Source of the DNA: Burkholderiales bacterium JOSHI_001
Lineage (GTDB): Bacteria; Pseudomonadota; Gammaproteobacteria; Burkholderiales; Burkholderiaceae_C
Length of the DNA stretch: 64,000 bases
NCBI GenBank assembly: GCA_000244995.1
Contig: CM001438.1
Span: forward strand, 1 to 64,000
Reading direction: 5' to 3'
This document shows, piece by piece, positions 40,554 to 43,442 of the stretch (its first letter is position 1; each line of letters begins with the position of its first letter). The position numbers and the translations under genes are program-made. The notes beneath the pieces were generated by a model, which saw only the letters and a program-made list of their open reading frames with translations, was not told the DNA's origin and made no database searches.

Positions 40554-41747
40554 CTAGGGCTTAACGCCAGGCTGACGCGCCGCCGGGGCGCTGCGCTCGC
40601 CCCGCTCCTGGCGGGCCTGTGCCAGCGCGGCGTCCAGGTCCGGCTCCTTCAGGCCCTTGAGGGCGCAGAAGTTGGCCTTGGACAAGGGGCTGGTTTCGAA
40701 CTGGCGCAGCAGCACGGCGCGGTCGCGCTGGGCCGGGTCGGTGGGCAGGGCAGGGGCGTTGTCGCCAGCGTCGCGCGGGCCCGGGTTCGGGCGGCGGTCG
40801 GGGCGCCCTTCCTGGCGCGGATCGTGCCGCGGATCGGGTCGCGCGCCGGGACGCGGGTCCGGCCGTCCCTCGGGCCGGCGGTCGGGGCGTCCTTCGGGGC
40901 GTGCACCGGCCGGCCGGCCGGGTGGGCCTTCCGGTCGCCCGTCGCGCCGCGCTTCACGCGCTGCCCCGGCGGGCGGCGGGCCGCGCCGGTCGTCGCGGCG
41001 GGGGTCCGGGCGCCGCGGCTGCGCTGCCGCATTGGGGTCTTGCGGCCGGCGCGGGGGGCGCTCGTCGCGCCGCGGTGGGCGCTTCGGCGGCGTGGCCGTG
41101 GACGGGGCGCTGGCGTCCGTCGGCCCGGAGGCGGGTGAGCCCTCGGCGCCTTCGGTGGCGGCCGCATCCTGCGGCCCCGGGCCCGCGGGGCGGCCCGGCC
41201 CGCCGGGCCCGCGTGGCGGGCGCTGGGCGGCGCGGCGCTGCTGCACCAGGTCGCGGCGGCGGTTCAGTTCTTCCTGCGCGGCTTGCCGGTGTTCGTCGGC
41301 GATGTCGCCCGCGGGCTGGCCGTCCAGGTCGAAGCGCGTGGCGCTGGCCAGCAAGGCCTTCAGGTAGGCGGTGGTGGTGGTGTGGCGGCTGAAGAACAGG
41401 CCCATGGCCTTGCGGCTGAAGACACCCGGCGCCCGCTGCTGGATGTCGGCCTGGATGCGCAGCTTCAGCGGCCGCGGCGGCTGGTCGGCGCCGAACATCG
41501 CGGGGAAGTGCTGCGCCAGCGCCTGGGCACAGGCCGCTGGGCCCATGGTGGGTGTCGTGGGTGTGGTGGCCGTGCCCGCCTCGGCGGCCGGCGCGCCTGC
41601 CGGCCTTGCGTCGGGGCTGGCGTCCATGGGCGTGGCCGCTGCCGGTGTGGCGTCCGCCGGGGTCGCGGTGGCCTCGGGCTGGCTGGGCGTGGCCTCCAGC
41701 GGCGAAGGCGCCGCGTCGGCGGGCGGCGTGGAAACGGGATCTTGCAT
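40554..41747 (-). CDS. ProQ/FinO-domain RNA chaperone with long disordered linker
   Basis: This 397-residue protein's FinO/ProQ domain (about 60-165) contains AQHFPAMFGADQPPRPLKLRIQADI, FFSRHTTTTAYLKALLA and ATRFDLDG, the conserved RNA-binding face of ProQ. It is preceded by a Thr/Ala/Pro-rich tail. It is followed by about 170 residues of low-complexity, Arg/Pro/Asp-rich sequence (repeats like RPEGRPDRRPEGRPDPRP) and a short folded C-terminal element (LLRQFETSPLSKANFCALKGLKE). ProQ proteins bind structured sRNAs and mRNA 3' ends. The linker is far longer than in E. coli ProQ (232 residues). Confidence 0.93.
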   Translation of the reverse strand: MQDPVSTPPADAAPSPLEATPSQPEATATPADATPAAATPMDASPDARPAGAPAAEAGTATTPTTPTMGPAACAQALAQHFPAMFGADQPPRPLKLRIQADIQQRAPGVFSRKAMGLFFSRHTTTTAYLKALLASATRFDLDGQPAGDIADEHRQAAQEELNRRRDLVQQRRAAQRPPRGPGGPGRPAGPGPQDAAATEGAEGSPASGPTDASAPSTATPPKRPPRRDERPPRRPQDPNAAAQPRRPDPRRDDRRGPPPAGAAREARRDGRPEGPPGRPAGARPEGRPDRRPEGRPDPRPGARPDPRHDPRQEGRPDRRPNPGPRDAGDNAPALPTDPAQRDRAVLLRQFETSPLSKANFCALKGLKEPDLDAALAQARQERGERSAPAARQPGVKP

Positions 41748-41821: not shown

Positions 41822-42259
41822 TCAGGCGCGGGCGGCCAGGTCCTGGCGCCAGCCGCGTGCGCGCGGGCGGGGAAGGGGTCCGGGCACCGGGTAGTCGCGC
41901 ATGGCCTTCAGCACGCGCAGCACCTCGTTCTGCCAGGGCAGGGCGTGGGCCAGCAGGTTCAGCGCCACGGTGTTGCTCAGGCCGCTGTCGCCGCGGCAGC
42001 GCAGGTTGGAGACGATGGCGTTGGGATCGGACAACAGCACCACGCCGGGGCGCCACTCGGTCCAGGCCCAGGCCGCGCCGGCGGTGCGGCCGTCCACATT
42101 GCCCAACCAGACGGTGTGGCCCACGCAGCGGCCTTGCGCGTCGGGTTGACCCTGCACCTGGGTGCCCATGTGGCTGAACGCCGGCCACTCGTTCAGCGTG
42201 GCCGGGAGGTACCATTCCACGTGGGGCCAGCGTCTGATCATCCAGGACTGAATTTCCAC
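41822..42259 (-). CDS. RsaM-like (DUF4902-type) protein next to luxR, tentative
   Basis: This protein of about 145 residues is divergent from luxR. The start is uncertain: a GTG at 42259 with GAGAG upstream is chosen, a GTG at 42316 would overlap the promoter, and an ATG lies at 42241. It has no signal peptide or membrane segment. The sequence AAWAWTEWRPGVVLLSDPNAIVSNLRC followed by TVALNLLAHALPWQNEV resembles, from memory, the G-x-W ... SN ... LL ... WQ pattern of RsaM (DUF4902). RsaM proteins are small regulators encoded beside luxR/luxI genes in Burkholderia and relatives. Size and location fit; the family call is inference. Confidence 0.5.
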   Translation of the reverse strand: MEIQSWMIRRWPHVEWYLPATLNEWPAFSHMGTQVQGQPDAQGRCVGHTVWLGNVDGRTAGAAWAWTEWRPGVVLLSDPNAIVSNLRCRGDSGLSNTVALNLLAHALPWQNEVLRVLKAMRDYPVPGPLPRPRARGWRQDLAARA

Positions 42260-42317
42260 GGCGCTCTCATGTCGTTCGAACAGGGCGCCATGGTGCTGCG
42301 CGGCAATCGGCCCCACA

Positions 42318-42337
42318 AGCTACAAACATTGATAGTG
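42318..42337 (+). promoter_or_regulatory. Lux-box-like half dyad upstream of luxR
   Basis: AGCTACAA (42318-42325), then ACAT, then an imperfect second half (TGATAGTG). The first half-site is identical to that of the perfect dyad at 43152-43171 beyond the luxR gene. It lies 14-34 bp before the luxR start and in the divergent spacer with the RsaM-like gene. An autoregulatory operator is inferred from the match. Confidence 0.45.
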
Positions 42338-42351
42338 TTGGGTCGCTGCCC

Positions 42352-43065
42352 ATGAACCTGCAGGACTACCAGGAGCTTTATTCCGCCTCGGACCTGCAGG
42401 GTTTCGAGCGCAAGCTGGTGGCGTTTGCGCACCACTTCGACTTCGGCATCGTCTCGGCGGCCATCGGGGTGGACCGCCCTGGGCAGGCCCCGGTCTTCGT
42501 GGCGGTGGGCAACACGCCCAAGGACTTTGCCGAAGCCGCGCGAGACCCCGAAGACTACAAGCGCGACCCGGTGCTGCAGCGGCTGAAGTCGCAGTCTGTG
42601 CCCTTCTTCTATGACCAGGACCTGTACGTGAAGGCTGGCGGCGGCGACCTCTGGGAGGAGCAGGCCCGCTACGGCTTTCGCACCGGCGTCTCGCTGGCCA
42701 CGCACTTGCCCGGTGGGCGCCATTTCCTGCTGGGGGTGGACCGCGAGAAGGCCTTGCCCGAGGACGACGATCAACTGATCCGCCTGATGGCCGACCTGCA
42801 GTTGCTGGCGGTGCACGCGCAGGAGGCCGCGTTCCGGCTGCTGATGCCCCAGGCCCTGATCCGCATGAACGCACCGTCCATCACCGCGCGGGAGCGCGAG
42901 GTGCTGCAGTGGACGATGGAGGGCAAGTCGGCCTGGACGGTGGGCCAATTGCTGTCCATGAGCGAGCACACGGTGAACTTCCACCTGCGCAACGCCATGC
43001 GCAAGTTCGACGCGTCCACCAAGCAGCAAGCGGCGCTGCGGGCGCGCGAGTTCGGCCTGATCTGA
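42352..43065 (+). CDS. LuxR-family regulator with autoinducer-binding domain (solo)
   Basis: This 237-residue protein has an N-terminal autoinducer-binding domain (about 15-160) and a C-terminal LuxR helix-turn-helix (TAREREVLQWTMEGKSAWTVGQLL followed by SMSEHTVNFHLRNAMRKF). No luxI synthase is in the window. Of the residues that contact acyl-homoserine lactones in TraR, the Asp-Pro pair is kept (D72-P73). The Trp57 and Tyr61 positions appear to be Phe59 and Ala63, by my hand alignment. The pocket may therefore prefer a different signal. A divergent RsaM-like gene and two related dyads suggest a compact quorum-type switch. Confidence 0.9.
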   Translation: MNLQDYQELYSASDLQGFERKLVAFAHHFDFGIVSAAIGVDRPGQAPVFVAVGNTPKDFAEAARDPEDYKRDPVLQRLKSQSVPFFYDQDLYVKAGGGDLWEEQARYGFRTGVSLATHLPGGRHFLLGVDREKALPEDDDQLIRLMADLQLLAVHAQEAAFRLLMPQALIRMNAPSITAREREVLQWTMEGKSAWTVGQLLSMSEHTVNFHLRNAMRKFDASTKQQAALRAREFGLI

Positions 43066-43151
43066 AGGCCCCAGGGCGCAGGCTGCGCCCGCTCGGTGGC
43101 CCGGCGCAGCCTGGGTTGAAGACCCCCCGACAGATCTTCTTGCACTTGTCA

Positions 43152-43171
43152 AGCTACAAGGGGTTGTAGCT
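43152..43171. promoter_or_regulatory. Perfect 20-bp dyad downstream of luxR, putative LuxR operator
   Basis: AGCTACAA and TTGTAGCT flank GGGG, a perfect 8-4-8 inverted repeat with the length of a lux box (20 bp) but not its usual ACCTG/CAGGT arms. The first arm recurs upstream of luxR. It lies 86 bp after the luxR stop, upstream of a structured leader with a micro-ORF, so it could control a transcript beginning here. Confidence 0.55.
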
Positions 43172-43199
43172 ACCTGATTAGTGGGCTTCTTGCTGAAAT

Positions 43200-43226
43200 C
43201 TTTTCATCCCGTTTCGGGTTGAAAAG
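43200..43226 (+). other. Hairpin overlapping the ribosome-binding site of a micro-ORF
   Basis: CTTTTCA (43200-43206) pairs with TGAAAAG (43220-43226). Inside, CCCG pairs with CGGG after one T-T mismatch, and the loop is TTT. The 3' arm runs into the AGAAGGA that precedes the ATG at 43238, so folding could limit ribosome access. It could equally be a factor-binding dyad in DNA. Confidence 0.5.
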
Positions 43227-43237
43227 AAGGAATCGGC

Positions 43238-43294
43238 ATGCTCTGCGCCCACTTTGACGCTGTTGTTCTCATTCCGCGCATCGGCCCCTGGTGA
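43238..43294 (+). CDS. 18-codon micro-ORF with good ribosome-binding site
   Basis: The peptide MLCAHFDAVVLIPRIGPW would be made from an ATG placed 6-7 bases after AAGGA. It is unrelated to any leader peptide I know and contains no run of one amino acid that would suggest attenuation. It lies between the LuxR-type dyad and two strong hairpins. It could be a leader peptide, a small signalling or toxic peptide, or a chance ORF. Expression is unproven. Confidence 0.3.
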   Translation: MLCAHFDAVVLIPRIGPW

Positions 43295-43378: not shown

Positions 43379-43442
43379 GCGCCACCCCGTTTTGGGGTGG
43401 CGCAACTTGCAAGTCGAAGCGGCCGCCAGCGAGCGGCCGCTT
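43379..43442 (+). other. Two strong 10-bp hairpins before the thioredoxin gene
   Basis: GCGCCACCCC (43379-43388) pairs perfectly with GGGGTGGCGC (43394-43403) around GTTTT. AAGCGGCCGC (43417-43426) pairs perfectly with GCGGCCGCTT (43433-43442) around CAGCGA. The second ends in TT but no full T-run follows. Together with the upstream elements they suggest a structured, possibly terminated, short transcript in this 500-bp gap. The remaining part of the gap, to 43566, shows nothing else. Confidence 0.5.

Follow-up and report, generated by a model that had tools for sequence, protein, structure and literature searches.

The analysed window, i.e. the whole stretch of 64,000 nt from Burkholderiales bacterium JOSHI_001 (GCA_000244995.1, contig CM001438.1, positions 1-64,000 of the forward strand), contains an RsaM-like gene on the reverse strand, followed on the forward strand by a luxR-type gene and by an unannotated 18-codon open reading frame (ORF), MLCAHFDAVVLIPRIGPW. 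A preliminary description of this DNA had centred on luxR and two related dyads flanking it; both the peptide ORF and the rsaM-like gene were missing from it. The locus is composed of the following features:

41822..42316, reverse strand: RsaM-like gene, divergent from luxR, 164 aa from a GTG at 42316 (start uncertain); a homologue lies upstream of luxR in 81 of 81 loci
42318..42337, forward strand: imperfect LuxR box upstream of luxR, its midpoint 24 bp ahead of the ATG; likely autoregulatory
42352..43065, forward strand: luxR-type receptor gene, 237 aa, with a changed ligand pocket; Pfam Autoind_bind and GerE
43152..43171, forward strand: perfect LuxR box of 20 bp upstream of the peptide gene, its midpoint 76 bp ahead of that gene's ATG; putative promoter box
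43194..43199, forward strand: putative -10 element TGAAAT with extended TG, placed by eye about 35 bp past the box centre
43226..43231, forward strand: Shine-Dalgarno-like GAAGGA, from the sequence
43238..43294, forward strand: peptide gene MLCAHFDAVVLIPRIGPW, putative pheromone precursor without leader; 78 of 79 loci have a peptide gene with a core of this type at the corresponding position
43271..43291, forward strand: presumed active core IPRIGPW, matching cores repeated or conserved in relatives; presumed cleavage site
43379..43403, forward strand: GC-rich hairpin downstream of the peptide gene, seen by eye and followed by no T-run; the transcript possibly ends here

Stretches like TGnT..AAT are visible in several loci, by eye and without a controlled count, and the sigma-70 and terminator scans at the locus called neither a promoter nor a terminator. 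The downstream transcript, whose content lay beyond the view of the preliminary description, would encode a short peptide that is likely a signal.

How the divergent gene is classified depends on the measure applied. By curated Pfam score it would not count as an RsaM: the window copy has no hit to PF16245/DUF4902, and three relatives gave 18.6 bits, 14.8 bits and no match against a cut-off of 25. By the fold of BcRsaM, a tryptophan quartet and adjacency to luxR, it does. PDB searches with single RsaM-like proteins gave no match to BcRsaM and the profile search alone found 4o2h (E=5.9e-5), while in Foldseek both top hits were chains of 4o2h (probability 1.00, E 1.6e-3 and 1.8e-3, TM 0.48-0.59). 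Residues W70, W83, W85 and W128 align with Trp of BcRsaM and are kept in 75, 74, 75 and 75, respectively, of the 75 rows longer than 90 aa. Of 14 luxI loci examined, 7 likewise contain an RsaM-like gene (L129, L130, L131, L133, L135, L139, L142). According to the accessible text of a survey of such loci, RsaMs mostly restrain acyl-homoserine lactone (AHL) systems and adjoin luxI/luxR, and rsaM beside luxR solos (topology 6) is recorded in Pelomonas, Kinneretia, Albitalea, Thauera and Xenophilus; a term search of that text did not return the word 'peptide' (PMC10710839). Since an RsaM-like neighbour is present as in luxI/luxR loci, the peptide cassette resembles an AHL locus in which luxI has been exchanged. 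Further along, at 40554-41747 on the reverse strand, the window encodes a ProQ/FinO-domain protein with a long low-complexity tail (tail by eye).

The LuxR-type receptor and the search for luxI

With an autoinducer-binding domain (PF03472, 63.9 bits) and a GerE helix-turn-helix domain (PF00196, 59.5 bits), both above cut-off, the window protein is a LuxR-type autoinducer receptor. The nearest folds of its structure model (mean pLDDT 94) are predicted to be RhlR, QscR and SdiA, so that the receptor has a LuxR fold and not that of the TPR-type peptide-binding receptors of the RRNPP/Rgg class. The ligand pocket was read at the positions of Trp57, Tyr61 and Asp70, the AHL-pocket residues in TraR numbering, by way of an RhlR alignment made here. 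This alignment bears out the earlier observation that Trp57 and Tyr61 are changed, to F59 and A63 in the window LuxR, which does not have the complete Trp57/Tyr61/Asp70 pocket of an AHL receptor. Across the family the TraR W57 equivalent is Trp in 1 of 81 LuxRs and the Y61 equivalent is Tyr in 17 of 81, while all 20 control rows have Trp and Tyr there; these rows represent 17 different LuxR genes, 13 of which belong to luxI loci. The equivalent of the AHL-contacting Asp is kept in 79 of 81 family LuxRs, which would be compatible with a small-molecule ligand. The earlier suggestion of a possibly non-standard signal gains support from the family-wide state of the pocket. An AHL solo was dropped as a candidate because the pocket residues are changed.

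In a quick tree the LuxR family forms one branch (SH-aLRT 100) apart from 16 controls. It was found in 54 of 200 sampled genomes of the bacterial family at E<=1e-40, representing 34 of 126 genera; the hit of one of those 54 genomes (G144) is a luxI-linked LuxR. Covariation between LuxR and the peptide core did not rise above phylogeny, and columns of the ligand and DNA domains scored alike. In four loci (L192, L193, L194, L195) family luxR copies stand in tandem groups of three to five with one peptide gene found per group, and single copies in L192 and L193 contain internal stops; the tandem copies are possibly eavesdropping or orphan receptors.

The earlier statement that no luxI is present holds at the scale of the genome, in which PF00765 had no match; 14 control genomes of the same search had none either. 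LuxI/LuxR quorum sensing in the sense of a luxI synthase encoded in the genome is thus not what is found here. Within the same bacterial family this query matched 35 of 200 genomes at E<=0.001 and 14 at E<1e-20. The term 'solo' that had been applied to the gene is probably the wrong word, since the partner of luxR is a peptide gene and not luxI.

Conservation of the peptide gene and of the boxes

The locus was compared in a set of 81, consisting of the window and the best 80 of 207 relatives, which come from the Rubrivivax/Roseateles/Pelomonas group and include Mitsuaria, Paucibacter, Ideonella, Methylibium and unclassified Burkholderiales. Two loci (L077, L094) end at a contig boundary, hence 79 leave room behind luxR, and in 78 of these a short peptide gene follows (32 called by eye); none was found after luxR in L083. 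The typical core reads [hydrophobic]-P-[K/R/Y]-x-(G)-W/GG. All of the ten relatives read first (eight genomes, 41-51% identical) showed, by eye, a tiny ORF after luxR, with C-termini such as PRAGW, PRVGGW, PKGGW, VGRW, PRNGG and PITGN. Some members have a looser core (PTPTW, TPTPTW, APSKTW, APGRRW, LPRVS, LPYTGG, GPNGGW), and leaderless genes may be as short as 9 codons (MTSYPRVGW, MICLPRVGW). The L179 precursor has a double-glycine leader and five copies of GPNGGW, a core that lacks the K/R found in most members. In L063 (also L203) FPRVGF ends each of two adjoining tiny ORFs, which looks like a core duplication that gave separate genes.

A strict motif was defined as P[KR] followed by 2-3 residues and W; the ORF had to start with ATG, encode 8-90 aa, carry a Shine-Dalgarno-like site and lie at most 500 bp after luxR. 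It occurs in 46 of 79 loci. Among the controls it was absent from the reverse strand (0 of 79), from the upstream region and from luxR itself (0 of 81 each), turned up once in each of two sets of distant windows (1 of 77, 1 of 78) and averaged 0.55 per round in shuffles. The motif is counted as post hoc because it was written down after the loci of the 80 relatives had been read, though it was visible in the first ten. Five loci (L078, L085, L096, L103, L126) are the same records as first-read loci; once these and the window are set aside, the strict motif is present in 47 of the 72 peptides called. A looser motif, itself shaped on the loci, was found in 64 of 79 against 0-3 in six controls, and of its three reverse-strand hits in 79 loci, two belong to L050 and L051, where the gene is inverted. 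A later set comprised 29 loci; luxR was placed by script in 27, at least 10 of which had already been counted; 22 of the 27 pass the loose motif fixed beforehand, four more (L179 among them) have a peptide by eye, and no peptide was found in L187. A chance ORF was dropped as an explanation, the motif controls being near zero, as was a small RNA or leader only, the cores being repeated.

Starting 86 bp past the luxR stop, the dyad AGCTACAAGGGGTTGTAGCT at 43152-43171 is the sole match in the window at up to 3 mismatches (shuffles: mean 0.03, 3 of 100 having one). A search of the genome, proposed earlier as a check, returned it as the only perfect copy in 5.6 Mb. All remaining genome matches carry 3 mismatches, and at this level the reversed control pattern outnumbers the dyad per strand (27 vs 12); there is accordingly no genomic surplus of weaker copies, and with no further copy better than 3 mismatches no regulon can be proposed from the window dyad. 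Taken alone, the element at 42318 is a poor palindrome (4 of 8 arm positions pairing, counted by eye). On a matrix of the family's peptide-side boxes, whose training set included the 43152 box but not the 42318 element, the latter (AGCTACAAACATTGATAGTG) nevertheless scores 21.9 and ranks second in the window, between the 43152 box (23.5) and a third-ranked site at 7.1. The two related dyads described as flanking luxR are hence both real, the one at 43152 being perfect.

A lack of conservation of the dyad at orthologous loci had been named beforehand as a result that would refute the preliminary description; the dyad is conserved. A box scoring at least 6 precedes luxR in 73 of 81 loci (34 of 1620 simple shuffles), and one precedes the peptide gene in 74 of 78 (9 of 1560 simple shuffles reaching the score), at 65-105 bp from the peptide start (median 83.5; 74 loci). 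In L050 and L051, where the peptide gene is inverted, the box lies upstream of it on that strand. Two earlier proposals, that the regulator has its own DNA code and that it controls both itself and a downstream transcript, are in agreement with these counts, the boxes being putative sites recognised from their sequence.

Leaders, repeated cores and exporters

The precursors fall into two classes, 42 of 78 with a double-glycine-type leader ending in GG or GA and 36 of 78, the window included, without. Of the 41 leader-type loci with room, 36 have genes for HlyD and a C39-ABC exporter after the peptide gene, whereas none of the 35 leaderless loci with room does (queries: the HlyD and C39-peptidase ABC proteins of L098, L101 and L128); in the remaining five of the 41 no exporter was found within 5.5 kb. 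The window peptide shows neither part of the combination of GG leader and C39 exporter, as it has no double-glycine leader and no exporter match lies in the window; two C39 matches are located elsewhere in its genome, at 2.47 and 4.10 Mb. In 25 of 78 precursors an identical core occurs 2-4 times (e.g. LPRGTW or SPKGTW repeats), and in 23 of these 25 the copies differ by silent changes in the DNA. Among 20 chosen and partly overlapping close pairs, identity was 188/194 in the core vs 493/641 in the rest of the precursor.

The box code splits by LuxR group in the same manner, with CTGTAAGA-NN-TGACAG on one side and CTACAA/CTACCA-GGGT-TTGTAG on the other: among the 74 boxed loci, 39 of leader type use CCCTGTAAGAGCTGACAGTT and 32 leaderless ones use CCCTACAAGGGTTTGTAGTT, the exceptions being 3 leaderless loci, all nested in the leader clade. 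The leader-type pattern was scanned in 16 genomes from the top of the LuxR search, 15 of leader type and one leaderless (G011). Of 26 sites, half (13) coincide with the luxR-peptide locus, and 12 of these are perfect; the other 13, among them the one further perfect site (in G013), lie elsewhere vs 3 for the reversed control. The pattern had no match at the peptide locus of G079, G179 or G013. At a distance from luxR, G114 (L239) carries a second box with 1 mismatch, 95 bp before an ORF for an HlyD-family protein, and in G096 (also G189) one such box precedes a solute-binding-protein gene, two sites that are not independent because the stretches are 90% alike overall.

The proposed circuit and its alternatives

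The anatomy of the rsaM-like/luxR/peptide cassette, its conservation and the co-occurrence of leader and exporter are demonstrated across the loci compared, and the best explanation is probably a LuxR quorum-sensing circuit in which luxI has been replaced by the gene of a ribosomal peptide pheromone. LuxR would bind the CTACAA...TTGTAG box and, once occupied by its ligand, activate the peptide promoter, the peptide-side box lying about 45 bp before the transcript start, which is expected near 43206. It would probably modulate its own gene too, feedback on luxR being suggested by the box 24 bp before its ATG. The ligand would be the peptide's own C-terminal core (approximately IPRIGPW in the window), which would create an autoinduction loop with a ribosomal peptide in place of luxI and its AHL. 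In the leader-type relatives, the neighbouring HlyD/C39-ABC exporter would cleave off the core and export it, after which the peptide would be taken up again and reach LuxR in the cytoplasm; for the window, exit and re-entry of a leaderless 18-mer is the weakest of these presumed steps. The RsaM-like protein would act as a brake on the loop, which is the role of most RsaMs studied in AHL systems. Tandem luxR copies without peptides of their own count against this reading, as do the retained Asp equivalent, covariation no higher than phylogeny, the loose cores of some members, the loci L083 and L187 in which no peptide was found, the five leader-type loci lacking a nearby exporter and, for the window, a peptide with neither leader nor adjoining exporter.

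Alternatively, the peptide might never leave the cell as a signal and might instead act inside the cell as a small partner of its own LuxR, which it would activate, stabilise or inhibit as a built-in timer or anti-activator, with the exporter branch as a later elaboration. This is unlikely, even though the window peptide and 35 others are leaderless, with the exporter in 0 of 35 loci with room, and though L114, L119 and L126, located inside the leader clade, lack both leader and exporter while retaining LuxR, box and core. Two IMG/VR contigs with the same kind of luxR-peptide pair would also fit. The double-glycine-type leader of 42 of 78 precursors and the exporter in 36 of 41 loci argue against this reading, and the repeated cores are easiest to explain if they are cut apart.

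The peptide could also be an output, such as a microcin-like toxin or a modified product, under a LuxR that senses AHLs of neighbours or another small molecule. A double-glycine leader with an HlyD/C39 exporter is the layout of class II microcins as well, the Asp equivalent is kept, and AHLs can be around, since 5 of the 14 genomes with a strong luxI also carry a peptide-type luxR (G013, G028, G140, G164, G223). This reading is nevertheless quite unlikely, given that the Trp and Tyr of the AHL pocket are mostly lost and that the products go down to 9 codons. There is moreover little room for an immunity or modification gene, because the exporter alignment begins between -9 and 254 bp past the peptide gene (36 loci), and past the exporter the three loci with ORFs listed show mnmG or opposite-strand genes (by eye). 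In L048 an ORF that reads as luxI (by eye) follows luxR with a similar box, and the concentration of half of the 26 box sites and nearly all perfect ones at the luxR-peptide locus of the 16 genomes speaks against an output role, too.

Known LuxR solos respond to foreign AHLs or plant compounds. Although known solos behave in this way and rsaM is recorded beside luxR solos (accessible text of PMC10710839), it is very improbable, and was already disfavoured, that the receptor is such an ordinary solo and the small ORF of the window incidental, since the peptide gene is found in 78 of 79 loci with controls near zero and is preceded by boxes.

Under the preferred reading of a peptide in place of luxI, the occurrence of a tiny peptide gene in the usual place of a signal-synthase gene suggests that these bacteria may signal by peptides. 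Double-glycine peptide export is known from ComC-type pheromones and class II microcins, and the leader-type relatives are alike in their GG/GA leader and adjoining C39-peptidase ABC exporter with HlyD; the differences are a LuxR-type receptor instead of a histidine kinase, several repeated cores and a window member that is leaderless. In the ComS/XIP-ComR and SHP-Rgg systems of streptococci, a leaderless peptide of about 17-20 aa is encoded beside the gene of its cytoplasmic receptor, often with a hydrophobic N-terminal part and, as here, a short C-terminal core ending in W or GG, whereas the receptor of the present family is LuxR and not Rgg/RRNPP and the hosts are Gram-negative. Phage LuxR and transcription factor-small ORF modules exist as well, and in two viral-classed contigs (L190, L191) a LuxR gene stands beside a tiny ORF, which differs from those modules in holding the LPYVGGN/IPYGGG kind of core of the bacterial peptides. 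In these IMG/VR contigs (L190 2935-3657, L191 2989-3711; longer flanks L251, L252) the family luxR is diverged, its GerE domain is unmatched by Pfam, and it is followed by the peptides MSFFELIAELLGLPYVGGN and MHSFFDAFLELLGIPYGGG; a second LuxR-type gene is convergent to the first and phage repressor/Cro-like genes lie nearby, an arrangement that is possibly a phage peptide switch.

The LuxI/LuxR/RsaM AHL loci of Burkholderia, Acinetobacter and Pseudomonas, as far as the accessible text presents them, share with the cassette the LuxR fold, a lux-box-like operator before the signal gene, a signal gene beside luxR and an RsaM-like neighbour with four Trp aligned with BcRsaM; here luxI gives way to a peptide gene, the pocket Trp/Tyr are mostly lost and the box is clade-specific (PMC10710839). 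The rsaM-luxR solo loci (topology 6) of the same text (PMC10710839) have the same divergent pair without luxI, and Pelomonas is in both sets; what the present loci add is the peptide gene together with its box. Among the top-ranked open-access literature, no description of a LuxR-peptide pair of this kind was found.

Taken together, the evidence on balance tilts towards a widespread Gram-negative quorum-sensing family in which a LuxR-type receptor has switched from AHLs to a short ribosomal peptide and luxI has been replaced in an otherwise intact rsaM-luxR locus, with two signal dialects (leader-exported and often multi-core, or leaderless), tandem receptor arrays and, on viral contigs, a version that lies close to phage repressor-like genes and could function as an arbitrium does. 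In Gram-negative signalling, LuxR receptors serve as the model for receptors of small molecules, and peptide pheromones are textbook Gram-positive. If true, a LuxR receptor for a peptide encoded in the genome would bring the two together, would provide a partner for 'orphan' LuxRs in about a quarter of the bacterial family (54 of 200 genomes), would make the signal readable from DNA and would reduce the question of peptide signalling in Gram-negative bacteria to a single synthetic-peptide experiment.
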